Source: Bacteroidota bacterium | GTDB taxonomy: Bacteria > Bacteroidota > Bacteroidia > B-17B0 > Aurantibacillaceae | Direction of reading: 5' to 3' | Assembly: GCA_030681615.1 (NCBI GenBank) | Contig: JAUXSA010000098.1 | Location: 1 to 64,000 of the forward strand | Length of the DNA stretch: 64,000 nucleotides | Shown: in pieces, positions 47,400-63,159 of the stretch | How positions within the stretch are numbered: position 1 is the first letter of the stretch | Layout of the letters: the number at the start of each line of letters is the position of its first letter | The notes under the pieces: model-generated | The model's input: only the letters and a program-made list of their open reading frames with translations | What the model was told of the DNA's origin: nothing | Database searches by the model: none | Position numbers and translations under genes: made by a program

Positions 47400-48314
47400 A
47401 TGGCCTGGAAAAAAAGAGGTTTGATTTTTAAAGTGGAACAGCAGTATCCATGGTTGCAATCTCACGCGCAATTGCCCGTCGCAGATCTTATTTCCGAAAA
47501 TACGGTACGAGTATATTTTGCAGGAAGAAGTATTCAATCCTTTTCAAGTATTGGTTATGTTGACCTTGATGTAAAAAATAACTTTAATATAATAAACATT
47601 TCTGAGCAACCTGTACTTTCACCTGGAAAAATTGGGCATTTTGATGAACATGGGGTTTTTCCTGCATCCATTATTAATTATAACAATAAAAAATATTTAT
47701 ATTTTATAGGCTGGAATCAAGGTTACAAACAGCCTTTATTTTATGCTTCAATTGGTCTTGCGGTAAGTGAAGATAATGGAAATACATTTAAAAAAATATC
47801 AAATGTACCCGTGATGTCAAGGAGCGAATATGATCCTTGCCTGGTTACATCTCCAAACGTCTTCCTTGAGAATAATATTTGGAAAATGACCTACGTTTCA
47901 GGAGTTAAATGGGAGTTGGTAGATGAGCAATTAAAATCTTTTTATCATATAAAATATGCTGAGTCTGATAATGGAATTGATTGGAAACGTGATGGAACCA
48001 TTTGTATTGACTTTAGAGATGAAAAGGAAACGAATATTGCACGCTCGGCAGTAATAAAAGAGAATGGGGTCTATAAAATGTGGTTTTGTTATGTATATGA
48101 CACAGCAAAATACAGGATGGGTTATGCAGAATCCTATGATTGTAAAACATGGATAAGGAAAGATGCTGAAGCAGGCATAACAATTTCAGAAAATGATTTT
48201 GATAGTGAAATGACGTGCTACCCGAATATTATTGTTATCAACGGAAAAAAACATATGTTTTATAATGGAAATAGTTTTGGGAAACAAGGGTTTGGATTAG
48301 CGATTTATGAATAA
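47400..48314 (+). CDS. Glycosidase-like five-bladed beta-propeller protein of polysaccharide loci
   Basis: 304 residues with the fold signs of the GH43/GH32/GH130 superfamily: VRVYFAGRSIQSFSSIGYVDLD, FDEHGVFPASIINYNNKKYLYFIGW, NVFLENNIWKMTYVSG, TNIARSAVIKENGVYKMWFCYVYD and NIIVINGKKHMFYNGN, each a propeller blade with an acidic turn. There is no signal peptide, so it acts in the cytosol. Such proteins accompany acetamidino-sugar genes in many O-antigen loci, yet their activity is not established. It overlaps the WbpG-like gene by 8 bases. Confidence 0.75.
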   Translation: MAWKKRGLIFKVEQQYPWLQSHAQLPVADLISENTVRVYFAGRSIQSFSSIGYVDLDVKNNFNIINISEQPVLSPGKIGHFDEHGVFPASIINYNNKKYLYFIGWNQGYKQPLFYASIGLAVSEDNGNTFKKISNVPVMSRSEYDPCLVTSPNVFLENNIWKMTYVSGVKWELVDEQLKSFYHIKYAESDNGIDWKRDGTICIDFRDEKETNIARSAVIKENGVYKMWFCYVYDTAKYRMGYAESYDCKTWIRKDAEAGITISENDFDSEMTCYPNIIVINGKKHMFYNGNSFGKQGFGLAIYE

Positions 48315-49455
48315 ATTAGAAAAAATAATGTGTAGTCGTTGTCTTTATGATAGCGAAACACCAAAAATATCTTTTGATGAAAAAGGTGTTTGTAATTATT
48401 GTGATCTTTATGATAATTTAAAAAAACAATTTCCAGGCGGAAAAAAAGGTGAAGAAGATTTTCTGAAAATTGTTAGAGAAATAAAGGCTGCAGGTAAAAA
48501 TAAAAAGTACGACTGTGTAATTGGTGTAAGTGGTGGAGTAGATTCATCGTATCTTGTACACAAAGTATTAGAATACGGTCTTAGACCACTGGCCGTTCAT
48601 TACGATAACACATGGAACTATGCTGTAGCTAATGAAAACATCAGTAAGGTATTAACCAAACTCAATGTTGATCTGTATACATATATTGTAAATAACGAAG
48701 AAGCAGATGACATCTTCTTATCTTTTCTAAAAGCAAGTGTTCCCGAAATAGATGCAAGCAGCGATATCGGGCTTGCGTCTGTATTATATATTGCTGCCGA
48801 AAAGTATGGCGTTCAATATGTGATCGAAGGCCATTCTTTTAAAGCAGAAGGTGTAGCGCCACTTGGATGGGCGTATATGGACGGCAAGTATATTGCCAGC
48901 ATCCAAAAACAATTCGGCTCAAAAAAAATAAAAACGTTTCCTAACATGCCACTTTATAAATTTATAAAGTGGATAGCAATTAAGCGTATCCGGAAAATAA
49001 GACCATTATGGTATTTGGATTACAACAAAGAAGCGGCAAAAGAACTTCTAAAAAGAGAGTTTGACTGGAAAGATTATGGTGGACATCATATGGAAAATAG
49101 AATATCGAGGTTTGGACATGGTTTTTATCTTCCTATTAAATTCAAAATGGATCAACGAAAAAATGCTTATGGAGCAGCCGTGCGCGAAGGAGTTATTACC
49201 AGAGAAGAAGGAATTAGATTATTAGAAGCAGGAAGAGACTATACGAAAGATGAACTCGATAATTTTAAAAAGCGCTTAAAACTCACAGACGAAGAATTTG
49301 ATAAATTAATTGCCTTGCCTTTAAAATCTTTTAGAGATTATCCTACCTACAAAAAAACATTTGTGAGACTAAAGCCCCTGTTTTTTATATTGCTGAAGTT
49401 TAATCTCATTCCGCATTCATTTTATATCAAATATACTTCAAAAGACGAAATTTAA
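48307..49455 (+). CDS. N-acetyl sugar amidotransferase (WbpG/PseA-like)
   Basis: 382 residues. The N-terminal zinc-type pair CSRC and CNYC (residues ~9-32) is followed by the PP-loop GVSGGVDSSYLVH (~71), then VHYDNTWN and IEGHSFKAEGVAPLGWAYMD. This is the ATP-dependent subunit that converts an N-acetyl sugar to an acetamidino sugar, using ammonia from the HisH/HisF pair encoded immediately after. Known examples are WbpG of Pseudomonas O-antigen and PseA of flagellin pseudaminic acid. Its stop overlaps the hisH start by one base. Confidence 0.93.
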   Translation: MNKLEKIMCSRCLYDSETPKISFDEKGVCNYCDLYDNLKKQFPGGKKGEEDFLKIVREIKAAGKNKKYDCVIGVSGGVDSSYLVHKVLEYGLRPLAVHYDNTWNYAVANENISKVLTKLNVDLYTYIVNNEEADDIFLSFLKASVPEIDASSDIGLASVLYIAAEKYGVQYVIEGHSFKAEGVAPLGWAYMDGKYIASIQKQFGSKKIKTFPNMPLYKFIKWIAIKRIRKIRPLWYLDYNKEAAKELLKREFDWKDYGGHHMENRISRFGHGFYLPIKFKMDQRKNAYGAAVREGVITREEGIRLLEAGRDYTKDELDNFKKRLKLTDEEFDKLIALPLKSFRDYPTYKKTFVRLKPLFFILLKFNLIPHSFYIKYTSKDEI

Positions 49456-50066
49456 TGATCACTATTATTAATTATGGTTTAGGTAATTTGGGGTCGGTTC
49501 AAAATATGCTCAAACGCATTGGTACGCCATGTATAATTACTTCTGACATTAAAGAAATCGAAAACGCTGAAAAAATTTTGCTGCCTGGTGTTGGCGCCTT
49601 TGATTCTGCAGTACAAAAAATTGACGAATTAAACTTACGTTCCATACTAGTTCACAAAGCAAAAGTAGATAAGATCCCTTTCTTGGGCATTTGTTTGGGC
49701 ATGCAGCTATTAACAAGAGGAAGTGAAGAAGGTGTATTAAATGGATTGGATCTTGTCCCTGCAAAAACAATAAAATTTAAATTCGACGAAACATCTGATC
49801 TTAAAATTCCGCATATGGGTTGGAATTTTGTAAAAGTTAACACGCCAAGTAAATTAACCGAAGGCTTTACGCCAGAGCATAGGTTTTACTTTGTACATTC
49901 ATACAAAGTGGTTTGTGATAATAATAACAACTCTATTTTAAGAACCGGTTATGGTAGTGATTTTGATGCTGCTATTCAAAATGAAAACGTGTATGGAACC
50001 CAGTTTCATCCTGAAAAAAGTCATAAATACGGCATGCAGTTATTAACTAATTTTTCTAAAATTTAA
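49455..50066 (+). CDS. hisH: Glutaminase subunit HisH of the sugar amidotransferase system
   Basis: 203 residues, class I glutamine amidotransferase. The triad is complete: Cys80 in FLGICLGMQLL, His185 and Glu187 in QFHPEKS. LLPGVGAFDSA forms the oxyanion region. Sequence alone cannot separate histidine HisH from the sugar-locus paralogue, but the WbpG-like gene before it and the altered HisF after it point to the latter. Adjoins hisF without spacer. Confidence 0.92.
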   Translation: MITIINYGLGNLGSVQNMLKRIGTPCIITSDIKEIENAEKILLPGVGAFDSAVQKIDELNLRSILVHKAKVDKIPFLGICLGMQLLTRGSEEGVLNGLDLVPAKTIKFKFDETSDLKIPHMGWNFVKVNTPSKLTEGFTPEHRFYFVHSYKVVCDNNNNSILRTGYGSDFDAAIQNENVYGTQFHPEKSHKYGMQLLTNFSKI

Positions 50067-50825
50067 ATGTTATTAGTACGCTATATACCATGTTTGTTAT
50101 TAAAAGATAACGGGCTGGTTAAAACTGTTAATTTTAAAAACCCAAAATATGTTGGCGATCCAATTAATACGGTTAGGATCTTTAATGAAAAAGAAGTTGA
50201 CGAATTAATTTTCTTGGATATTGAAGCAACACCTAAGAATAGAGAACCAAATTATAAATTACTGGCCGAGATAGCTAACGAATGTTTTATGCCATTGGCA
50301 TACGGCGGAGGAATAAAGACCTTTGAACAGGCGCAAAAGATCTATAATATAGGCATTGAAAAGGTGGCTATTAATAGTTTCCTTCACAAGGATCTAAATT
50401 TAGTTACTCAAATTTCAGAGGTTTATGGCGCACAGGCTGTAATAGGTGTAATAGATGTTAAAAAGAATTTCTTTGGAAAAAATCAAATTGTTTCTAATTC
50501 AGCAAATGATAAACATAAATATACTATTGAAGAATGGGTAAAAAGATTAGAAAAAGCTGGTGTTGGCGAAATACTTATTACAAGTGTTGATAATGAGGGA
50601 ACCTGGAATGGATTGGATGTTGAATTAATAAAACAGGTCACATCAATTTCAAAAGTGCCAGTTATTGCACATGGTGGAGCAGGCAATATCGATCATTTAG
50701 TTGCTGGTATAAAGCAGGGCGGCGCTAATGCAATTGCAATGGGTAGTATGGTAGTATATCAAAAAAAGGATTTTGGTGTATTGGTAAATTTTCCGGATAA
50801 AAAAATACTTGAAGATAAATTGTGA
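50067..50825 (+). CDS. hisF: HisF-like ammonia-channel subunit of the sugar amidotransferase system
   Basis: 252 residues, TIM barrel of the HisF family (DELIFLDIEATPKNREPN, PLAYGGGIKTFEQA, KVAINSFL, EILITSVDNEGTWNGLD, VIAHGGAGN). The cyclase aspartate expected at position 11 is replaced by Leu (RYIPCLLLKD instead of CLDVKDG); the second Asp (VIGVIDVKK) is kept. Loss of Asp11 is typical of sugar-locus HisF2/AglZ proteins, which pass ammonia to WbpG-type enzymes instead of making imidazole glycerol phosphate. Its last bases overlap the next gene (GTGA). Confidence 0.92.
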   Translation: MLLVRYIPCLLLKDNGLVKTVNFKNPKYVGDPINTVRIFNEKEVDELIFLDIEATPKNREPNYKLLAEIANECFMPLAYGGGIKTFEQAQKIYNIGIEKVAINSFLHKDLNLVTQISEVYGAQAVIGVIDVKKNFFGKNQIVSNSANDKHKYTIEEWVKRLEKAGVGEILITSVDNEGTWNGLDVELIKQVTSISKVPVIAHGGAGNIDHLVAGIKQGGANAIAMGSMVVYQKKDFGVLVNFPDKKILEDKL

Positions 50826-52150
50826 AGAAAGACGAAATAAAAATAGCCTGCATTGGTAACATGAATAATAATATGTTTACTGTTGTGCGGTATTTAAAAG
50901 ATGAGGGATATTGTGTTACTTTATTTTTATTAGATGAGTATGGGCATTTTTTGCCAGAGGCCGACACCTTTGATAAGGTTGACGTTGAAGTTAAAAATTT
51001 AGGGTGGAATAAGTTTACATTTCATCAAGAAAGTAAGGAAAGCATTAAGAAGAAATTTGAAGGATATAATTTTTTTATTGGAACCGATTGGGCGCCGGCA
51101 TACCTTTTTAAAGCAGGAATTTTACTTGACATTTTCTGCCCTGCCGGCAGCGATTTATTTGAGTATCCTTTTTGCAAACTCGAAAAAATTCGACCATTAC
51201 CAACTATTGCAGGCATCGAAGGCTGGCGTTGTTCAAAGTATCAGTATTACGGAATTAGATATACCAGATACATATCAATGGAGCCAACTAATGCTGAACT
51301 TGAAAGATATGTAAAAGAGATATGCTCCGTTAACAGTAAAAGAATTCCTGCTTTACCTTTTTTATATATTAAACAATATAATGAAAACTATTTTCAAAAA
51401 TCTGAATTTTATGAACGGGTAAAAAAAATAAGGAACGAAAGTGATATCCTGATCGTTCAGCATTGCCGTCAAGAGTGGAAAGGAGATAAAGAAAGCTTTC
51501 ATTATAAAGCAAACCAAATTTTTTTGAAAGGGTTTAGGGATTTTATATCCTCTGTTCCTAAAGTTCGTGTAAATCTTTTATTGCTCGAGTATGGTACGGA
51601 TGTGAATGCTTCTAAAGAATTGATCTTAGAATTGGGTTTACAAGATAGAGTACATTGGTTGCCAACTACATTAAGAAAAAACCTGATCGGCGTTATTGAC
51701 CTTTGTGATATAGGAGTTGGAGAATTGGGAAAAAGCTGGGTAGTTTATGGTTCTGTTTTGGAAATTTTATCTGTTGGAAAAATTTTTATTGGCCGCAGAA
51801 ATGATAAAGAGTATAGCGAAAATTACAGTTATTTATATCCGATGTTTAATGCAGTAAGCGCTGAAGATGTAACGAAAAGTTTAATAGAAATTTCTTTAGA
51901 TCTAAATAAACAAAAATTAATTGCCTTAACCGGAAAAAAATGGCTTGAGGAAGAAATTATTAATAAAAGTATTAAAACGCTTAACGGGTGTATTGAAAAT
52001 AAGGCAATGTCAGAAAGTAATTATTCTAAAGTTGTGCCATTTAAAGTTGAGCTTACCCTGTTTACTTATACTTTATGTTCATATTTTATTATTATTTTAA
52101 ACTACTTTAAAATAAAATTAACAAGGAGTTATAATCCCCATGCTGTTTAA
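50822..52150 (+). CDS. Glycosyltransferase-like protein (GT-B fold)
   Basis: 442 residues, starting at GTG. IKIACIGNMNNNMFTVVRYLKDEGYCVTLFLLDEYGHFLPEAD is the beginning of a GT-B N-terminal domain (given in part: first strand GNMNNN). The second domain includes LIVQHCRQEW, LLLEYGTDV, LGLQDRVHWLP and GVGELGKSWVVYGSVLEILSVGK, matching the acceptor/donor cleft of GT4-like enzymes, with a degenerate E-x7-E (~303-313). A C-terminal hydrophobic stretch (LFTYTLCSYFIIILNYF) may tie it to the membrane. It overlaps the MBOAT gene by 11 bases. Confidence 0.78.
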   Translation: MKKDEIKIACIGNMNNNMFTVVRYLKDEGYCVTLFLLDEYGHFLPEADTFDKVDVEVKNLGWNKFTFHQESKESIKKKFEGYNFFIGTDWAPAYLFKAGILLDIFCPAGSDLFEYPFCKLEKIRPLPTIAGIEGWRCSKYQYYGIRYTRYISMEPTNAELERYVKEICSVNSKRIPALPFLYIKQYNENYFQKSEFYERVKKIRNESDILIVQHCRQEWKGDKESFHYKANQIFLKGFRDFISSVPKVRVNLLLLEYGTDVNASKELILELGLQDRVHWLPTTLRKNLIGVIDLCDIGVGELGKSWVVYGSVLEILSVGKIFIGRRNDKEYSENYSYLYPMFNAVSAEDVTKSLIEISLDLNKQKLIALTGKKWLEEEIINKSIKTLNGCIENKAMSESNYSKVVPFKVELTLFTYTLCSYFIIILNYFKIKLTRSYNPHAV

Positions 52151-53573
52151 TTCGTTACAGTTTATACTTTTCTTTTTGATCGTAACTCCGGTGTATTATT
52201 TGCTGCCACATAAATTCAGATGGTTTCATTTATTGGCAAGCAGTTGTGTTTTTTATATGGCATTTGTTCCTGTGTATATATTAATACTTTTTGGAACGAT
52301 CATCATTGATTATTTTGCGGGAATCTTAATAGCAAAAACAGATGGAAAGAAAAGGAAATACTATTTGATCATTAGTTTAATAGCCAACATTGGTGTTCTT
52401 TTTGTTTTTAAATATTATAATTTTTTTATAGATAATATAAATGATATTGGTGGAGCCAATTTGCCTTTTCTTAAAATTTTATTGCCAATAGGTTTATCAT
52501 TCCACACTTTTCAGGCAATGAGTTATACTATCGAAGTATACCGCGGAAACCAAAAAGCAGAAAAACATTTTGGGATCTATGCCTTATATGTTATGTTCTA
52601 TCCTCAATTAGTTGCCGGCCCAATTGAAAGGCCACAAAATATTTTGCACCAGTTTCATAAAAAAAAACAATTTTCTTACGCTAACATTGTTAATGGTTTG
52701 AAGCTAATAGCCTGGGGAATGTTTAAAAAAGTTGTTGTGGCCGACAGGTTAGCTATTTATGTAAACGAGGTATTTGATAACCAGTTAAGTTACGAAGGTA
52801 TACCTGTAATTATAGCCTGTGTTTTCTTTTCATTGCAGATCTATTTCGATTTTTCCGCATATTCAGATATTGCTATTGGTACTGCAAAAACATTAGGTTT
52901 TGATCTGATGATCAATTTTAGGATGCCCTACTTTTCAAGAACTATCACCGAATTTTGGAGTAGATGGCACATCTCTTTATCTACCTGGTTCAGAGATTAC
53001 TTATATATACCCTTGGGTGGTAATAGAATATCAAAAACGCGAACAAAAATAAATCAATTCATAGTTTTTGTTATAAGCGGTTTTTGGCACGGCGCTAACT
53101 GGACCTTTTTATTATGGGGCTTTTTGCATGGCCTATATATAATCATCGAAAATGAGCTTAAAGCAATGCTTGGAACCTTCAAAATTTATTTACCTGTAAA
53201 ACGTATATTAATATTTGGGTTAATAACATTTGCATGGATCTTTTTTAGGGCAGAAAATATTAAACAGGCTTTTAATATTGTAGGGTCTTTAGAGAATAAT
53301 TTATTGCAACAAATAAGCAATATTATTAGCAATGCAGACCTTGCCAGATTAAAACTACTTTATGCTAACAAAGGGGCCGGTGTGTTTTTATTGTCACTTC
53401 TTTTTGTATCAACAGTAATGCTAATAGAGTGGAAGCAGAAAGACAGAAGTATCATTCATTATTTTCATTCGTTGAGCAAGCCTGTGCGTTATTCTATGTA
53501 TTTTTTTCTCATCTACGGAAGTATTTTCTTCGGTATTTTTGAAAAGAACCAGTTTATTTATTTTCAGTTTTGA
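52140..53573 (+). CDS. MBOAT-family O-acyltransferase (AlgI-like)
   Basis: 477 residues with about ten membrane segments. The start MLFNSLQFILFFLIVTPVYY, YSDIAIGTAKTLGFDLMINF, the RTITEFWSRWHISLSTWFRDYLYIPLGGN block and the catalytic His in SGFWHGANWTFLLWG (~316) match AlgI/DltB-type acyltransferases. It moves an acyl (usually acetyl) group across the membrane for O-acylation of the polysaccharide. The next gene encodes an SGNH-like partner, the usual arrangement; they overlap by 4 bases. Confidence 0.95.
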   Translation: MLFNSLQFILFFLIVTPVYYLLPHKFRWFHLLASSCVFYMAFVPVYILILFGTIIIDYFAGILIAKTDGKKRKYYLIISLIANIGVLFVFKYYNFFIDNINDIGGANLPFLKILLPIGLSFHTFQAMSYTIEVYRGNQKAEKHFGIYALYVMFYPQLVAGPIERPQNILHQFHKKKQFSYANIVNGLKLIAWGMFKKVVVADRLAIYVNEVFDNQLSYEGIPVIIACVFFSLQIYFDFSAYSDIAIGTAKTLGFDLMINFRMPYFSRTITEFWSRWHISLSTWFRDYLYIPLGGNRISKTRTKINQFIVFVISGFWHGANWTFLLWGFLHGLYIIIENELKAMLGTFKIYLPVKRILIFGLITFAWIFFRAENIKQAFNIVGSLENNLLQQISNIISNADLARLKLLYANKGAGVFLLSLLFVSTVMLIEWKQKDRSIIHYFHSLSKPVRYSMYFFLIYGSIFFGIFEKNQFIYFQF

Positions 53574-54547
53574 AAAAATTAGTTGCGAATACATTTATTT
53601 TTGGCAGTCCTCTGATCTTTTTCCTGTTGTTCTTTGCTATTGATGATCCATTTGGAATAGTATACAAAAGTACTTGCCTTGCTGCTACCAGTGAAGATAT
53701 GATAGTTATAAGAAAGTATTTAAACGAGTATGAAGCTCAAGCTCCTTCGGCATTTATTTTTGGTAACTCAAGAACACACGCATTTAAGAAATACAAGTGC
53801 GGAACAACCACGGAAGATTTTTTTGATTTTGGCTGCCCGGGCGAAAGCGTTTTAAATATTAAAAAGAAATTACAGTTGATAATAGATAAACAAAAGGAAG
53901 TAAAAAATGTTGTGATCCTCGTGGATGATGGAATTCTTGAGAATACCGACAATACACATAGATTTTACCAGGGCCCTGTATATAACCACACGCCCATAAG
54001 TTCTAATGTTTCTTATATTACTTTTTATTCAAATTACATCAAGTATTATTTTAGCGACTATTTTTTTATTAAACATATTTACTATAGGTTAACCGGTAAT
54101 TATAAAGAGGCCTGGATGAAAGACGCTTTCGCAAAACCCGGAGTAGATAAAAATTACGCTTGTAAAAATTATCCTACCCTGGCGGATAGTTTACTTGAAA
54201 CAAACTTTGAAGAATATAAACGTGTATTTAAACCAGATTATATAAGTTATACAAAAAAAAAATTGAAAATTGATACTCGTGATACTGAACATTTGAGCGA
54301 GATCGCAAAAACACTTAAAGAAAATAAGATCAATTATAAAATTATTTATCCTCCTAATTTCCATAAACGCAAAATTGAGCCCGAATTGGAGAAGCTGTTA
54401 TCTGGTATGTTTAAAAATAATTTCTACGATTTTTCCGGCGTTAATAAGATCACAACAGACAGTGCTTTAAATTATGAGAATCTGCATTTCACTTACCGGG
54501 CTGCAAATATGATGTTGGATAGTATGTGTAGAAGTGCTAATGAGTAA
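53570..54547 (+). CDS. SGNH/AlgJ-like partner of the MBOAT acyltransferase
   Basis: 325 residues, TTG start overlapping the MBOAT stop. An N-terminal anchor (~1-25, FGSPLIFFLLFFAI) is followed by AFIFGNSRTHAFKK (~62), which corresponds to block I of SGNH-type proteins (S within GNSR), then VVILVDDGILE and, near the C-terminus, NYENLHFTYRAANMM with the D/N-x-x-H block. It is likely the periplasmic acyl carrier or transferase that completes O-acetylation of the polysaccharide. Family assignment rests on pattern and neighbour. Confidence 0.75.
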   Translation: MKKLVANTFIFGSPLIFFLLFFAIDDPFGIVYKSTCLAATSEDMIVIRKYLNEYEAQAPSAFIFGNSRTHAFKKYKCGTTTEDFFDFGCPGESVLNIKKKLQLIIDKQKEVKNVVILVDDGILENTDNTHRFYQGPVYNHTPISSNVSYITFYSNYIKYYFSDYFFIKHIYYRLTGNYKEAWMKDAFAKPGVDKNYACKNYPTLADSLLETNFEEYKRVFKPDYISYTKKKLKIDTRDTEHLSEIAKTLKENKINYKIIYPPNFHKRKIEPELEKLLSGMFKNNFYDFSGVNKITTDSALNYENLHFTYRAANMMLDSMCRSANE

Positions 54548-56593: not shown

Positions 56594-57448
56594 TTGAATA
56601 GTAGTAGAACATATTTAATTGTTGGTGCAAACAACCCGTTATCTTTAAGACTTACGGAAAATTTACCTTCAAAGAATACATTTGTTTTATATAATTCTGC
56701 CCCTACATTTAAAAAAGAAGGCGTTACATATTATGGGATAGACGATTTAAATAAACTTCCAAAAATAGATGTGGTTTTTATTATAAGCGCTTTTGTGCCG
56801 GATAGGATGGACTCTTTTAATGATAACCTGCAGCTTTTTAATGTAAATATCCAGTTTATTAAAAAAATTTCAGACTGCTTCAAAGATTCGAAGTTAATAT
56901 ATGCATCCAGCGTTTCAATTTATAAAAATATACCCGGAAAGGCAATTAGCGAGGATTCAGAAATTGATCCACTTAGTCCGTATGCAATTTCAAAGCTATG
57001 GGCAGAAAAAATCATAAAACAAAATTGTAGTTATTCGATCTTCCGGATCTCATCATTAATTGGTAGTGGAATTAAAGAAAGAACCTTTGTTCCTATTGTT
57101 ATTAACGAAGCTTTTAATAACAAAACTATTACTTTGTATGGTAATGGCTCACGAGTTCAGAACTATATTAACTATCTTGATGTTTGTAAATTACTGATTA
57201 AAGCTTCAGAAATAAAAACTAATGGAACGTATTTAGCAGTTAACCCCCTGTCTATATCAAATACCGGAGTTGCTGAGTTGATAAAAGAATTAATACCAGA
57301 TGTTAGCATAAAGTATATTGGTAGCGATGCATCATCATCTTTTAGATATAACGCAGAACGCACATATGCCGACCTAAGTTACACACCTTCAATAACCATT
57401 AAAGAATCTATAAATGAAATATTAAAATGGAAAACCGAACAGTTTTAG
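56594..57448 (+). CDS. NAD-dependent epimerase/dehydratase (SDR)
   Basis: 284 residues, TTG start. The Rossmann start is YLIVGANNPLSLRLTENL, less canonical than GxxGxxG (here GANNPLS). IYASSVSIYKNIPGKAISED, the catalytic SPYAISKLWAEKII (Tyr-x3-Lys), FRISSLIGSGI and NGSRVQNYINYLDVCKLL follow, all typical of nucleotide-sugar SDRs. It likely works with the ATP-grasp and HAD proteins encoded next; its 3' end overlaps the ATP-grasp gene by 22 bases. Confidence 0.85.
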   Translation: MNSSRTYLIVGANNPLSLRLTENLPSKNTFVLYNSAPTFKKEGVTYYGIDDLNKLPKIDVVFIISAFVPDRMDSFNDNLQLFNVNIQFIKKISDCFKDSKLIYASSVSIYKNIPGKAISEDSEIDPLSPYAISKLWAEKIIKQNCSYSIFRISSLIGSGIKERTFVPIVINEAFNNKTITLYGNGSRVQNYINYLDVCKLLIKASEIKTNGTYLAVNPLSISNTGVAELIKELIPDVSIKYIGSDASSSFRYNAERTYADLSYTPSITIKESINEILKWKTEQF

Positions 57449-58404
57449 TTACAGGTATTGGAGGAAATGTTGGTCAGGGTATTATCCGTAATATAATTTC
57501 TTTAAATAAAAATATTAAAGTTATAGGTACAGGTGTTGAAGATTTCTCAGGTGGAAACCATCTTTGTGATAAGTATTATAAACTTCCATACTCTTATCAT
57601 GATAATTATATTAGTGAGATTTTTGATGTCGTAAAAAAAGAAAATGTTGATCTTATCATTCCTTCAACAGATTATGAAACTTATTATTTATCAAAAAATA
57701 AAGACGTATTTAATTGTGAGATCTCTGTTTCCAACCTCGACGCTTGTGAAATTTATTTAGATAAGTATAATACATATTTGCACCATCTCAAACACAACAT
57801 TCCGTTTGCCAAATGTATTTTGCCCTCTTTTTATAAGAACGAATTTGAGAAGTCTATTGCCAAACCAAGAAAAGGAAGAGGTTCCAGGGGCTTAATAATA
57901 AATCCATCAGACGTTAGTAATTTGAATGATGAAGAATATTTGATCCAGGAATTATTTGAAGGTGATGAGATCACTACTGCTTTTTACGTAACTAAAACTA
58001 AAAAAATACTTGGACAAATTACTTTAAATAGAACTTTGGTTTCGGGAACGACACATAACTGCTTTGTTGAAAAAAAATATGATCAGGCGTTACTTTCGAT
58101 AATTACGGAGATGGTAAAATCGGCAGGAATCTTAGGTTCGGCAAATCTTCAGTCGATAGTAGACAAGAATGGTATAATTCACCCATTTGAGGTTAATTGT
58201 AGGATATCAGGTACAAATTCAATACGGTCGCATTTTGGTTTTACGGATGTTAAATATACTCTGCAGGAGTATCTTTTGAATGAAACGCTTCAAACACCAA
58301 ATATAATTGAAGGTTCGGCTACAAGAATATTAATGGATGTAATTTATCCAAAACAGGCTAATCAGGCTCTAAGTGATAACTCGTCAACATTTCATATATT
58401 TTAG
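57427..58404 (+). CDS. ATP-grasp ligase of the CarB-like group
   Basis: 325 residues. A Rossmann-like preATP-grasp domain (TVLVTGIGGNVGQGIIRNI, VDLIIPSTDYETYYLSKN) precedes the ATP-grasp fold: IAKPRKGRGSRGLIIN (glycine-rich loop), EEYLIQELFEGDEITTAFYV and IHPFEVNCRISGTNS (metal-binding Glu/Asn). Such enzymes join a carboxylate to an amine or other nucleophile through an acyl phosphate. In this context it may attach an amino acid or similar acid to an amino sugar. It overlaps both neighbours (22 bases and 1 base). Confidence 0.85.
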   Translation: MENRTVLVTGIGGNVGQGIIRNIISLNKNIKVIGTGVEDFSGGNHLCDKYYKLPYSYHDNYISEIFDVVKKENVDLIIPSTDYETYYLSKNKDVFNCEISVSNLDACEIYLDKYNTYLHHLKHNIPFAKCILPSFYKNEFEKSIAKPRKGRGSRGLIINPSDVSNLNDEEYLIQELFEGDEITTAFYVTKTKKILGQITLNRTLVSGTTHNCFVEKKYDQALLSIITEMVKSAGILGSANLQSIVDKNGIIHPFEVNCRISGTNSIRSHFGFTDVKYTLQEYLLNETLQTPNIIEGSATRILMDVIYPKQANQALSDNSSTFHIF

Positions 58405-59045
58405 TGAGTAATATAAAATTCATATATTTTGATGCGGCAAATACGCTTATTCATAAACCTGACCTTTGGATGCGGTTTAATGAGGTTTTAACGAAATACG
58501 GACATATAATTGATGTAAATGTTTTAAAGAAGCAGCATAAGTTGATCTCCGAAAACGTAAAATTCCCAGATAATACTTCACGGGATTTTTATAGTTCTTT
58601 CAATAGTGAAGTTTTAAGGTCACTCGGCGTTGCTTCAGACAACAAAATTTTGGACGATATTTATAATGCCTGTACTTATTTGCCATGGAAAACTTTTGAT
58701 GATGTTGAATCCTTAAAGGATATTAAAATCCCAATGGGTATAATTTCAAATTTTAATTCTTCTTTAAAAGCCAAAATAACTTCTCTTTTTGAAATATCAT
58801 TTAAAGAGTTTGTTGTGTCAGAAAATATTTCTGTTGCAAAACCTGATAAAAGAATTTTTGAATATGCAATTAATAAAGTAAATATAGATCCTGCCGATAT
58901 TTTATTTATAGGCGATTCTATTACACTTGATATTGAACCTGCCCAAAGTATAGGGATGCAGGCATACTTGATTGACAGGGATGGGATTTATCCTGATTTT
59001 AAAAGCAGGATAAATAGTTTTTATGAATTAAAAAACTTATTGTAA
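58404..59045 (+). CDS. HAD-superfamily hydrolase with altered motif I
   Basis: 213 residues, GTG start. Motif I reads IYFDAANTL: nucleophile Asp10 is kept, but the +2 residue, normally the acid/base Asp, is Ala12. Motif II MGIISNFNS, motif III Lys in VAKPDKRIFE and motif IV FIGDSITLDIEPAQSIGM are intact, and a helical cap (~20-90) is of the C1 type. Family members with D-x-A include phosphonatases and several of unknown activity. Activity as a simple phosphatase is therefore doubtful. It follows the ATP-grasp gene with a one-base overlap. Confidence 0.88.
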   Translation: MSNIKFIYFDAANTLIHKPDLWMRFNEVLTKYGHIIDVNVLKKQHKLISENVKFPDNTSRDFYSSFNSEVLRSLGVASDNKILDDIYNACTYLPWKTFDDVESLKDIKIPMGIISNFNSSLKAKITSLFEISFKEFVVSENISVAKPDKRIFEYAINKVNIDPADILFIGDSITLDIEPAQSIGMQAYLIDRDGIYPDFKSRINSFYELKNLL

Positions 59046-59046
59046 A

Positions 59047-59997
59047 ATGGAAACAAAAAATACATCGGCAAAAAAGATATCATTTGTTGTACCTGTATTT
59101 TATGAGGAAGAATGCATTCTACAATTTATAAAAGAGGTTGAGGAAGAAATGCAAACTATAAAATTAGATTTTGAATTTGTATTTATTGACGATGGCAGCA
59201 CAGATAAAACAGTGCAAATTATTAAACAAGAAGCCATACAAAAAAAGCACATCAAATTAATTGAATTGTCTTATAATCACGGTAAACAAGCTGCAGTAAG
59301 TGCAGGCATAAAATATGCTACGGGCGATTATTTAATGTATATGGATCCCGATCTACAAGACCCTCCAAAGGAGATCTCAGCTTTTTTGTATGAAATTGAA
59401 AAAGGGTATGACCTTGTTTTTGGTATAAGAGAAGAGAAAAAAGACAGTTTAATAAATGTTATTTTCTCAAAAATATTTTGGCATACACTAGAGAGGTTTA
59501 CAGGTTTAAAAATTCCCAAAGGCCTTGCTGTGATGAGATTGTTTAACAGAAAATTTGCTGACAGATTTTTACTATATGCTGAGCAGAATAGATTTATAGA
59601 AGGTATATTCATGCATATTGGATTAAACAGATCAGTAATTAAAATTAGTCAACGTGAACGTTTTGCAGGAAAAAGTAAGTTTAATTTTAAAAGAAAAATG
59701 ACACTTGCTTTTGATGCTATTTTCGATTTTTCTGAAATACCGTTAAAAGCCGCAGTTAAGCTTGGGGTTTTGTTATCAGCTTTAGGATTTATTTTTTTAA
59801 TTACCTTGGTTTTTATTAAGTTATTCGCAATAAGTTTTCAAATCGGATGGCTTTCCACAATAAGTACCATTATTTTATGTAGTGGTATTCAATTGTTTTT
59901 CATGGGTATAATTGCATTATATGTTGGAAGAATTTATAAAGAAACAAAAGGCAGGCCATTGTTTTCAATAAAAGGGTTTACAAATATCAATGAGTAA
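59047..59997 (+). CDS. Membrane-anchored GT2 glycosyltransferase (GtrB/ArnC-like)
   Basis: 316 residues. The catalytic domain shows ISFVVPVFYEEECILQFI, FIDDGSTDKTVQII, NHGKQAAVSAGIKYATGDYLMYMDPDLQDPPKEI (DPDLQDPP metal site) and a C-terminal pair of membrane segments (~235-295). This is the polyprenyl-phosphate hexose synthase group (GtrB/ArnC/DPM1 type). It may supply the donor for the polytopic protein at 61777-63159. Overlaps the next gene by 8 bases. Confidence 0.93.
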   Translation: METKNTSAKKISFVVPVFYEEECILQFIKEVEEEMQTIKLDFEFVFIDDGSTDKTVQIIKQEAIQKKHIKLIELSYNHGKQAAVSAGIKYATGDYLMYMDPDLQDPPKEISAFLYEIEKGYDLVFGIREEKKDSLINVIFSKIFWHTLERFTGLKIPKGLAVMRLFNRKFADRFLLYAEQNRFIEGIFMHIGLNRSVIKISQRERFAGKSKFNFKRKMTLAFDAIFDFSEIPLKAAVKLGVLLSALGFIFLITLVFIKLFAISFQIGWLSTISTIILCSGIQLFFMGIIALYVGRIYKETKGRPLFSIKGFTNINE

Positions 59998-60631
59998 TAC
60001 AAAAAAAATTGGAATAATCGGATCGGGTGATCTGGGGCAATTAATCGCTCATCATGCACTTAATTATTGCGGATTTAATAAGGTTTTGTTTTTTGATGAT
60101 TACAGGGCTACAAACGAGGTTGTAAATGGATGCATGGTGTATGGAAATATTAATGATGTTAATATGGCTTACCAAAAAAAGGAAATTGATTGTTTAATAA
60201 TTGGTATCGGTTATAAACACATCGAATTGAGAAAAAGATTGTTTGAAGGTTTTATGAATGTAGTGCCGTTTGCTTCGGTAATTCACCCATCTGCATATAT
60301 TGATATTACCTGCAAAATTGGTAATGGAGTTGTGATATTGCCTGGTTGCGTGTTAGATATGAATGTTGAATTGCAAGATAATGTTTTGTTAAATACAGGC
60401 TGTGTTATTGCTCACGATTCGTTTATTGGGGCTCATTCTTTTTTATCACCAAAAGTGGCAATTGCCGGGTTTTCAGAAGTAGGACAATGTTGTAATATTG
60501 GAATCAATACAACAGTTATAGATAATATAAAAATAAGCGATTTTGTACAAACTGGTGGAGCAACTGTTGTTATTAATAACCTAACTTTAAAAGGTTTGTA
60601 CGTTGGAAATCCAGCAAAATTTATAAGGTAA
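59990..60631 (+). CDS. PglD/NeuD-type acetyltransferase
   Basis: 213 residues. N-terminal Rossmann part (KIGIIGSGDLGQLIAHHAL, VLFFDDY, VYGNINDVNMAYQKKEIDCLIIGIGY) and hexapeptide beta-helix (~95-205: YIDITCKIGNGVVILPGC, NVLLNTGCVIAHDSFIGAHSFLSP, VGQCCNIGINTTV). The His in IAHDS corresponds to the usual active-site position. It is likely to acetylate the amino sugar made by the DegT enzyme directly downstream (6-base gap). Confidence 0.88.
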   Translation: MSNTKKIGIIGSGDLGQLIAHHALNYCGFNKVLFFDDYRATNEVVNGCMVYGNINDVNMAYQKKEIDCLIIGIGYKHIELRKRLFEGFMNVVPFASVIHPSAYIDITCKIGNGVVILPGCVLDMNVELQDNVLLNTGCVIAHDSFIGAHSFLSPKVAIAGFSEVGQCCNIGINTTVIDNIKISDFVQTGGATVVINNLTLKGLYVGNPAKFIR

Positions 60632-60637
60632 ATATAT

Positions 60638-61783
60638 ATGATCACTTTTAATAAACCCTATTTAACAGGTAACGAAACTGAATACATTAAACAAGCGGTT
60701 CAGAATTTAAAGATATCCGGCGATGGCCTTTTTACAAAAAAATGCCACAATTTTTTTGAAACCAGATACAAGTTTAAAAAAGTTTTACTAACTACCAGTT
60801 GTACCGATGCTCTTGAAATGGCGGCAATATTGCTGGATATTAAGCCGGGTGACGAAGTGATTGCGCCTGCTTACACTTTTGTATCAACTGTAAATGCTTT
60901 TGTTTTAAGGGGAGCAAAAATTGTTTTTGTAGATAGTAGTACAAAAAATCCAAATATGGATGTGGACAAAGTCGAAGCCTTAATAACTTCAAAAACAAAA
61001 GTTATTGTGCCTGTTCATTATGCTGGTATTGCTTGTGATATGGATAAATTAATGTTGTTAGCAAAGAAATATAATTTATTTGTTGTAGAAGATGCTGCAC
61101 AAGCAATAGATGGTTTTTATAAAGATAGGCCCTTAGGAAGTATTGGACACTTATCTGCATTTTCATTTCATGAAACAAAAAATATTATTTCCGGGGAAGG
61201 AGGAATGTTAGTAATAAACGATGAAAATCTTATTAGCCGTGCGGAGATAATTCGTGAAAAAGGCACAAATCGTACAGCCTTTTTTAGAGGTGAAGTTGAT
61301 AAGTATGGATGGGTAGATATAGGCTCGTCTTTTCTTCCGTCAGATATTATAGCTGCGTTTTTATATTCACAATTAGAAAATCTAGACAAAATTCAAAATA
61401 GGCGATTAGCTATTTGGAATAACTATTACAATAAATTAAGTTATCTTAAAGATACTAAAAAGCTCGAATTACCTGAGATACCGGCATTCGCATCCAATAA
61501 TGCGCACATGTTTTATATAGTTTGTAGTAGCCTAACTGAAAGATCGGCTCTTATCGGGCATTTAAAGAAAGATAATGTCCATGCTGTTTTTCATTATTTA
61601 TCTTTAAATAAAAGTCCGTATTATTTATCAACAAATAGTAACAGTTCTACCTTGGATCTATTTAATTCTGATAAATACACTGATAGGCTATTACGATTAC
61701 CGATGTACTTTGAGTTAACTGAAGATGATATTAATAAAATTGTTTCATCTATAAGCAATTTTTACGAAGATCAGAAATGCTAG
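60638..61783 (+). CDS. DegT/DnrJ/EryC1-family sugar aminotransferase (WecE-like)
   Basis: 381 residues. MITFNKPYLTGNETEYIKQA, TSCTDALEMAAILLDIKPGDEVIAPAYTFVSTVNAFVLRGA, VVEDAAQAIDGFY and the PLP-lysine site SAFSFHETKNIISGEGGM identify it. TGNETEYI and REKGTNRTAFFRGEVDKYGW are close to WecE, which makes dTDP-Fuc4N (dTDP-4-amino-4,6-dideoxygalactose). The substrate here cannot be proved. It overlaps the next gene by 7 bases. Confidence 0.93.
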   Translation: MITFNKPYLTGNETEYIKQAVQNLKISGDGLFTKKCHNFFETRYKFKKVLLTTSCTDALEMAAILLDIKPGDEVIAPAYTFVSTVNAFVLRGAKIVFVDSSTKNPNMDVDKVEALITSKTKVIVPVHYAGIACDMDKLMLLAKKYNLFVVEDAAQAIDGFYKDRPLGSIGHLSAFSFHETKNIISGEGGMLVINDENLISRAEIIREKGTNRTAFFRGEVDKYGWVDIGSSFLPSDIIAAFLYSQLENLDKIQNRRLAIWNNYYNKLSYLKDTKKLELPEIPAFASNNAHMFYIVCSSLTERSALIGHLKKDNVHAVFHYLSLNKSPYYLSTNSNSSTLDLFNSDKYTDRLLRLPMYFELTEDDINKIVSSISNFYEDQKC

Positions 61784-63159
61784 ATCTCAAAAAAAATATC
61801 TATTTATATACAGCTTTATTTTTATTAATAAGTTTTGGTATTTGTCATTTTACATTTTCCTATTTCAATACACTTGAGTCAGATGATTATAATCTTATTG
61901 CTTATATAAAAGAAAAAGGTTTCTTTGGCACAATCTGGTTTATTTATATGGAGTGGGAAGGGGCCTTTGGTGTTTTGCTCATTAGCCTCTTAAAAATAAA
62001 ATTTACTTTACTTACAGGTTCATTGTTTTTGCATAATGTACTTTCCTGTATCATTACACTGTATTGTTTTTATTATTTTATAAAAGCATGCTTTGTCCGT
62101 CTGCATATATTGCAAAAAGATCATTTTCCAATTATACTTGCTATTTTAATTTATACCAATATTTATTATAATAACTTAGCGCTAAACGATACTTGGTATT
62201 GGTTGTGTGGCAGCATCTATTTTTTTATGCCTGCTGTTTTGCTTTTTTTTATAGGGGTTATATTAAATCAAACAAATAAATACCTTGTATATATTGCTTA
62301 CGCCTTCTTCTTTATTTTTGGCGCAAGTCGTTTTAATTATTCGGTAATTACGCTTTCAGTTTTATGCTTGTTGCTTTTTTATTTTTGGATAAAGAACAAA
62401 ACGATCAATAAAACGATGTTATTACTATTAACACTTGTTTTAGCAGCACTTGTAATATATGTAATAGCTCCCGGAAATTATATCAGGCGAAACGATGAAT
62501 TAAAAAGTATTTTAACCTTATCTGACTATGTTATTGGGCCCTTAAAAATGGCTTCATCTTTCATTTACAAATACATCATTCTTAAAGCGCCATATCACGC
62601 TTTATTTTTATTACCCGCACTTTTTATCGGCTTTTCTATTAAAGACAGAATTCAAATTTTAATTCCTACAAAGCAGAAATTGTTTAGTATTGGTCTATAC
62701 CTTGTAGGGTTTCTGTTATTTTGTATTTACGTTCAGTGTTTTAGTATGTTCCTTGCAAAAGGGTCACAGGTTAACAGAACGCTTGAGATGTTATGTATTA
62801 TTTGCAGCTTTATTTTTATGGTCTTTTTTTTAATGATTGGCGCTTTTTTGCATCTAAAAAAACTATATCTGCCTTTGGGCATTACGTGTATGTTAGTTTC
62901 TTCACTCTTATTATTACGCAGAATACATATTTGTTACCCCATTATAAAAAAATATTCAATAGCCGTTGATGAAAGACATAGAACCATAGAAAATGCAATG
63001 AAGAATTTTACAGGCGATACGCTTGTTCTTAAAAAATTACCACCGGCTTCGTGGTTGCATTGTGGCGAATTGAAAAAACGTGCAGGCACCGACCCAATGA
63101 ATAATATTTTTCTTGAGAATTACTATAAACCCAAATTTGCCCTTGATATAGAAGATTAA
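61777..63159 (+). CDS. Polytopic membrane protein, DUF6056/GT-C-like
   Basis: 460 residues with about ten membrane segments. The first periplasmic loop has FNTLESDDYNLIAYIKEKG and MEWEGAFG, resembling the acidic motif and GR/E region of DUF6056-type and GT-C membrane proteins. Later LNDTWYWLCGSIYFFMPAVL and APGNYIRRNDELKS match the same group. The C-terminal ~60 residues are soluble. It may transfer a polyprenyl-phosphate-linked sugar to the polysaccharide; no catalytic role is proved. Two bases separate it from the next ATG. Confidence 0.68.
   Translation: MLDLKKNIYLYTALFLLISFGICHFTFSYFNTLESDDYNLIAYIKEKGFFGTIWFIYMEWEGAFGVLLISLLKIKFTLLTGSLFLHNVLSCIITLYCFYYFIKACFVRLHILQKDHFPIILAILIYTNIYYNNLALNDTWYWLCGSIYFFMPAVLLFFIGVILNQTNKYLVYIAYAFFFIFGASRFNYSVITLSVLCLLLFYFWIKNKTINKTMLLLLTLVLAALVIYVIAPGNYIRRNDELKSILTLSDYVIGPLKMASSFIYKYIILKAPYHALFLLPALFIGFSIKDRIQILIPTKQKLFSIGLYLVGFLLFCIYVQCFSMFLAKGSQVNRTLEMLCIICSFIFMVFFLMIGAFLHLKKLYLPLGITCMLVSSLLLLRRIHICYPIIKKYSIAVDERHRTIENAMKNFTGDTLVLKKLPPASWLHCGELKKRAGTDPMNNIFLENYYKPKFALDIED

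Follow-up and report, generated by a model that had tools for sequence, protein, structure and literature searches.

A conserved SDR, ATP-grasp and HAD cassette in surface-sugar gene clusters of Bacteroidota, and its possible role in the N-acylation of 4-amino sugars

A conserved set of genes, encoding in order an SDR, an ATP-grasp ligase, a HAD hydrolase, optionally a GT2 glycosyltransferase, a NeuD-type acetyltransferase and a WecE-type transaminase, is widespread in the surface-sugar clusters of Bacteroidota. It is described here from a single stretch of 64,000 nucleotides from a Bacteroidota bacterium (the window), in which the cassette genes sit within a long polysaccharide cluster. The cassette is so far unnamed, and varies a known ligase and phosphatase logic from Campylobacter. 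The preferred reading, to which about even chances are given, is that the cassette makes and transfers an N-acylated 4-amino-4,6-dideoxyhexose, with the HAD protein removing phosphate from the small acid that is used for acylation. A dTDP-Fuc4N derivative destined for a surface glycan is the most likely product.

The cassette lies on the forward strand. An extended SDR of the NAD-dependent epimerase/reductase type (56594..57448, 284 amino acids, TTG start) is followed by an ATP-grasp ligase of the PRK12767 (carbamoyl-phosphate-synthase-like) type (57427..58404, 325 amino acids, ATG start) and a C1-capped, REG-2-like hydrolase of HAD subfamily IA (58404..59045, 213 amino acids, GTG start). The ORF coordinates bear out the overlaps given in the preliminary description, of 22 bases between the SDR and ATP-grasp reading frames (57427..57448) and of 1 base between the ATP-grasp and HAD genes (58404). 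The cassette runs past 59045 to 61783, with genes directly downstream, all co-occurring with it, for a GT2 of the polyprenyl-phosphate glycosyltransferase kind (PgfS/ArnC-like, 59047..59997), a NeuD/PglD-type hexapeptide N-acetyltransferase (59990..60631) and a WecE-type dTDP-4-amino-4,6-dideoxygalactose transaminase (60638..61783). The next operon gene is probably that for a membrane protein, possibly of GT-C or polymerase type (61777..63159, forward strand), which is kept only in the closest relatives (L018/L027 and L019/L028). There is no second copy of the ATP-grasp gene in the 4.28-Mb assembly. The same cluster contains a wbpG-hisH-hisF-like trio (48307-50825), an amidotransferase set of the kind familiar from acetamidino sugars. 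The genes for an MBOAT acyltransferase and an SGNH-like protein (52140-54547) form a pair that is kept with the cassette only in its two closest relatives (L018 and L019).

Conservation of the cassette was assessed with a profile made from an alignment of six ATP-grasp sequences, which identified 80 loci in a scan of 84,980 species genomes; adjacency was counted in those loci, among the 80 ATP-grasp relatives in other genomes, that have enough flanking sequence. The HAD gene directly follows the ATP-grasp gene in 73 of 77 such relatives, and the SDR gene directly precedes it in 73 of 78. This co-occurrence check had been proposed along with the suggestion that the three genes share a pathway; far from being rarely found together, they form a conserved unit. 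Four relatives (L091, L101, L104 and L106) have no adjacent HAD gene, and the HAD protein may thus be dispensable or encoded elsewhere. The identical 22-base overlap between the SDR and ATP-grasp genes recurs in 47 of 75 loci, which rules out a chance origin and points to tight translational coupling. Downstream partners were counted in 62 loci, and include NeuD in 54, WecE in 51 and GT2 in 39. Five other genomes of the family to which the window belongs have a close ATP-grasp relative (50-82% identity), and all of them preserve the order SDR, ATP-grasp, HAD, GT2.

The hosts of the 80 loci are mostly Bacteroidota, with a few Planctomycetota, Verrucomicrobiota and other phyla (genomes outside the Bacteroidota being under-sampled), and the closest relatives of the window ATP-grasp are from Bacteroidota. 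Within the phylum the cassette is patchy, being detected at E<=1e-60 in three of 395 sampled genomes, which fits the expectation for surface-glycan genes. In the same sample only three HAD proteins score above 300 bits, all of them adjoining this ATP-grasp, and the next best scores about 76 bits. The cassette is not described in the literature searched, on ATP-grasp proteins with HAD, metallophosphoesterase, PHP or pseudaminic acid in polysaccharide clusters; most subscription papers lie outside that search, which makes it weak evidence of novelty, and the earlier remark that the genes match no familiar pathway holds to that extent. Two candidate matches were rejected: Shewanella SfmA-E include an ATP-grasp_4 and a NeuB-like protein, but no comparable phosphatase, and a Pseudomonas syringae ATP-grasp gene lies in another context.

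The ATP-grasp protein has the fold and the ATP/Mg-binding residues of the acid-amine ligase superfamily. Pfam detects PylC-like_N and ATP-grasp_3 domains (the latter at 1.4e-7), K113, K146, E181, R202, N240, Q242, E255, N257 and R259 are invariant, and the best NCBIfam model is of the PRK12767 type, with a score below the cut-off (171 bits versus 218). The predicted structure (pLDDT 95.4) most closely resembles 2pn1, a solved PRK12767 protein with the same fold and Pfam domains (Z 32.5, rmsd 2.1, 291 residues aligned, over the whole length), for which we know of no tested function. Next come PurK, GAR synthetase and PylC (Z 25-26), ATP-grasp enzymes overall falling at Z 24-32; these three activate carboxylate or bicarbonate. 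Both the modelled fold and the invariant residues agree with the initial prediction that this protein would ligate an acid to an amine.

Of the other cassette proteins, WecE passes two curated cut-offs (PRK11706, 578 bits versus 375; TIGR02379, 534 versus 434.85). NeuD scores just below its own (TIGR03570, 2.3e-44, 151.4 bits versus 160.8), passes the PglD_N and hexapeptide Pfam models and has a conserved H142. The SDR matches the Pfam Epimerase family (PF01370, 1.5e-17), with its catalytic triad of S105, Y130 and K134 conserved in 77 sequences, and the GT2 matches the NCBIfam models PgfS (4.3e-71) and ArnC (1.7e-47), both below cut-off. RmlB and RmlA are encoded in the same cluster as the cassette in one relative (L048). 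In another (L036, 11216-14212), an HTTM/DCC1-like ORF and an acyltransferase are inserted between the NeuD and WecE genes of the cassette.

The HAD protein (PF00702, 2.5e-13) possesses the nucleophile Asp, the motif II Ser/Thr, the motif III Lys and the acidic Mg site of motif IV (D10, S115, K146, D171 and D176), the last retained as GDSxxLD, but departs from canonical DxD phosphatases in having no Asp two positions past the nucleophile. Motif I (D10-A11-A12-N13-T14, 58431..58445, forward strand) reads FDAANTL with its flanking residues, and the codon at 58437-58439 places Ala at the usual acid/base position, as had been pointed out. Across 75 sequences, the residue at position 12 is Ala 61 times, Ser 13 times and Cys once, but never Asp. 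No variation is seen at D10, T14, K18, H45, E50, F54, P55, F62, Y63, F66, N67 or G75, and almost none at S115, K146, D171, D176 and, in the cap, K46. The missing Asp is accordingly a fixed trait of the family, not a sequencing oddity, and selection maintains the remainder of the active site. The same residues bear on the suggestion that the HAD protein has no catalytic activity and serves the ligase as a scaffold or stabilising partner: the absence of the canonical acid/base residue would be in keeping with such a role, but the invariance or near-invariance of D10, T14, S115, K146, D171 and D176 across the 75 sequences makes it very unlikely.

By family, the HAD protein is closest to the REG-2-like HADs of TIGR02252, which all 61 aligned members match, the window protein scoring below the curated cut-off (88.4 bits versus 155.2). 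Its solved relatives, 2zg6 (S. tokodaii ST2620) and 3k1z (HDHD3), likewise belong to subfamily IA with a C1 cap, and to our knowledge neither has a known substrate. The closest solved chain by profile, 2zg6, also lacks the Asp (DFGNT, with Gly at position 12), and has in common with the window protein the K18-P19 pair that follows motif I and a D191-R192 motif. The HADs of the phylum nearest to that of the cassette (L145-L166) mostly have Gly at the acid/base position (IFDYGGTL, IFDLGGTL). The predicted structure (pLDDT 96.2) matches HAD-IA proteins that include both phosphatases and haloacid dehalogenases (Z 18-21); PDB matches to ubiquitin were discarded as repeat artefacts.

A second suggestion from the preliminary description, that the protein is phosphonatase-like, can be widened to include dehalogenase-like enzymes, in which case a C-P or C-X bond would be broken and the Ala would give room for a catalytic lysine. 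Phosphonatase carries Ala at the usual acid/base position, as the window protein does, K18, H45 and E50 are invariant and K46 nearly invariant around the cap, and the structural neighbours include dehalogenases and cis-epoxysuccinate hydrolases. However, of these features only the Ala and the conserved cap lysine favour a phosphonatase in particular, motif IV retains its Mg site, none of the neighbouring genes examined was identified as a phosphonate gene, and ordinary phosphoesterases occupy the position of the HAD gene in relatives (see below). Cleavage of a C-P or C-X bond is accordingly quite improbable, and the activity of a known phosphatase that lacks the same Asp also speaks against it. 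That enzyme is Escherichia coli YihX (HAD4), a proven alpha-D-glucose-1-phosphate phosphatase specific for glucose-1-phosphate, which is a HAD-IA protein with Gly where canonical HADs have Asp+2. Its motifs III-IV can be aligned with those of the window HAD, although the two are only 24% identical over 66 residues and belong to different subfamilies. Because YihX is active with Gly, loss of the Asp does not abolish phosphatase activity, and the earlier view that Ala makes a plain phosphatase unlikely is probably wrong, particularly as phosphoesterases fill the same position in relatives. The example of YihX could also be taken to mean that the HAD has no part in handling the ligase product and instead hydrolyses a sugar-1-phosphate, or another phosphate whose leaving group is good, as a side step that serves salvage or flux control. 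This is improbable, as the strict linkage to the SDR and ATP-grasp genes and the strongly conserved cap residues point to a dedicated step.

The position beside the ligase gene was surveyed in 40 more distant ATP-grasp loci (about 26-32% identity where measured). Next to the ligase, these relatives keep a gene of roughly 190-260 codons whose product has other folds; an SDR is often present as well. In 32 of the 40 loci this neighbour is a phosphoesterase. Calcineurin-like metallophosphoesterases with intact metal-binding motifs (DxH, GD, GNH, GH) are found in 12 loci (L007-L012, L014, L111 and L115-L118), PHP proteins in five (L013, L110 and L124-L126) and ordinary HADs in 15, eight of the HADs being confirmed by Pfam and the remainder by profile and motif; the canonical Asp+2 is present in all 14 of the HADs inspected. 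In three relatives (L120, L123 and L139), the ATP-grasp and SDR genes are fused (662-683 amino acids) beside a DegT transaminase. A PHP, ATP-grasp and oxidoreductase trio directly follows cysD-nodQ-cysQ on Sinorhizobium medicae pMl3 (L110, 4574-10919), which suggests a link with sulfation.

In a tree of ATP-grasp sequences, those of the cassette form one clade of 25 rows (support 100/100), which lies inside a clade of 42 rows (100/98) that includes ligases whose partners are metallophosphoesterases or PHP proteins. Two rows with PHP partners fall among those with metallophosphoesterase partners (100/99), which gives good support to at least that exchange; branches are long and the other joins uncertain. 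The sister clade with DxD HADs may differ in function, and the exchange there is weaker evidence. Metallophosphoesterase and PHP genes are not common background in the clusters that carry the cassette, since no profile match to either was obtained among 1333 ORFs from the 80 loci. On the basis of this exchange with other phosphatase folds, and by analogy with YihX, the window HAD is most likely a phosphatase.

The surroundings of the distant relatives indicate that ligase and phosphatase travel with C4-aminosugar pathways. One ATP-grasp, SDR and metallophosphoesterase set (L170) adjoins RmlA, RmlB and a DegT transaminase (LegC-like, just below cut-off), and in two other loci the ATP-grasp and metallophosphoesterase genes lie inside pseudaminic acid clusters (L172, with PseB, PseC, PseG and PseI; L173, with PseG and PseI). 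In the VioA/VioB, WecE/WecD and PseC/PseH types of N-acylation, as here, a C4 transaminase is followed by an N-acyltransferase, but the window cassette adds a ligase that depends on ATP and a phosphatase, neither of which the acyl-CoA-dependent routes to N-acylated 4-amino sugars are known to use. N-acetylglycyl, N-acetyl-alanyl and similar groups do occur on 4-amino-4,6-dideoxyglucose in O-polysaccharides (PMC3210612).

The closest parallel in biochemical logic is found in the glycan amidation of Campylobacter jejuni, in which the ATP-grasp amidoligase Cj1438 couples a phospho-amine and the phosphate is then taken off the product by the HAD phosphatase Cj1435 (PMC11800379). The proposed pathway shares with it the pairing of ATP-grasp ligase and HAD phosphatase and the sequence of ligation of a phosphorylated building block and then dephosphorylation, and the adjacency counts above place the ligase gene next to the phosphatase gene, as expected of a system of this type. 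However, the ATP-grasp domain of Cj1438 is TupA-like and fused to a glycosyltransferase, whereas the window ligase is CarB/PRK12767-like and stands alone, without a match to a TupA-like model in Pfam or NCBIfam; the Campylobacter acceptor is a uronic acid, and the SDR, NeuD and WecE set is a feature of the window cassette. The window locus may work like Cj1438/Cj1435, but is no member of that system. A stricter reading of the parallel would have the ATP-grasp join a phosphorylated amine to the carboxylate of a uronic acid, in a glycan or nucleotide sugar, before the HAD removes the phosphate, with the 4-amino sugar genes as mere neighbours. The experimental precedent of Cj1438C and Cj1435 (PMC11800379) is direct, and a UDP-glucose dehydrogenase-like gene lies near the cassette in L048. 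This amidation is nevertheless rather unlikely, given the difference in ligase type, the linkage of WecE and NeuD to the cassette, and the recurrence of the metallophosphoesterase version in clusters that produce amines rather than uronates, namely those for pseudaminic acid and those with RmlA, RmlB and a transaminase.

N-acylation of a 4-amino sugar by the cassette can be laid out as follows. WecE, from its family assignment, would aminate dTDP-4-keto-6-deoxyglucose at C4. The ATP-grasp would activate a small carboxylic acid as an acyl phosphate and join it to an amine, the acid probably bearing a phosphate ester, as in an O-phospho-amino or -hydroxy acid. From the exchange of phosphatases beside the ligase, we infer that the HAD acts as a Mg-dependent aspartyl-phosphate phosphatase without Asp+2, and takes the phosphate off either before or after ligation. 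NeuD may acetylate a free amine, the SDR would adjust a keto or hydroxyl centre, and the GT2 would load the sugar onto polyprenyl phosphate. Several points weigh against this scheme: besides the relatives without an adjacent HAD gene and the possibly different function of the sister clade, the conserved Ala, Ser or Cys could mean chemistry other than ester hydrolysis, and NeuD alone could acylate the 4-amine, leaving the ATP-grasp without an obvious acceptor. More tentatively, and with somewhat less than even chances, the cassette could represent a general route to N-acylated 4-amino sugars in which a phosphorylated acid is ligated and then dephosphorylated; the SDR and the CarB-like ATP-grasp would be its constant core, with the phosphatase swapped among at least three unrelated folds and the position taken in Bacteroidota by a HAD clade without the catalytic Asp.

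For genes that are otherwise anonymous, a fixed position in which phosphatase folds are exchanged is a functional clue of unusual strength. The HAD clade has lost its acid/base residue yet retains the other parts of the active site, and so offers a natural test of the HAD phosphatase mechanism. O-antigens, capsules and flagellin glycans owe part of their character to N-acyl groups on amino sugars, although many of the enzymes behind the more unusual acyl groups have yet to be identified. Because the cassette is small and widespread and suggests a clear candidate order of steps, such an attachment can be tested directly.
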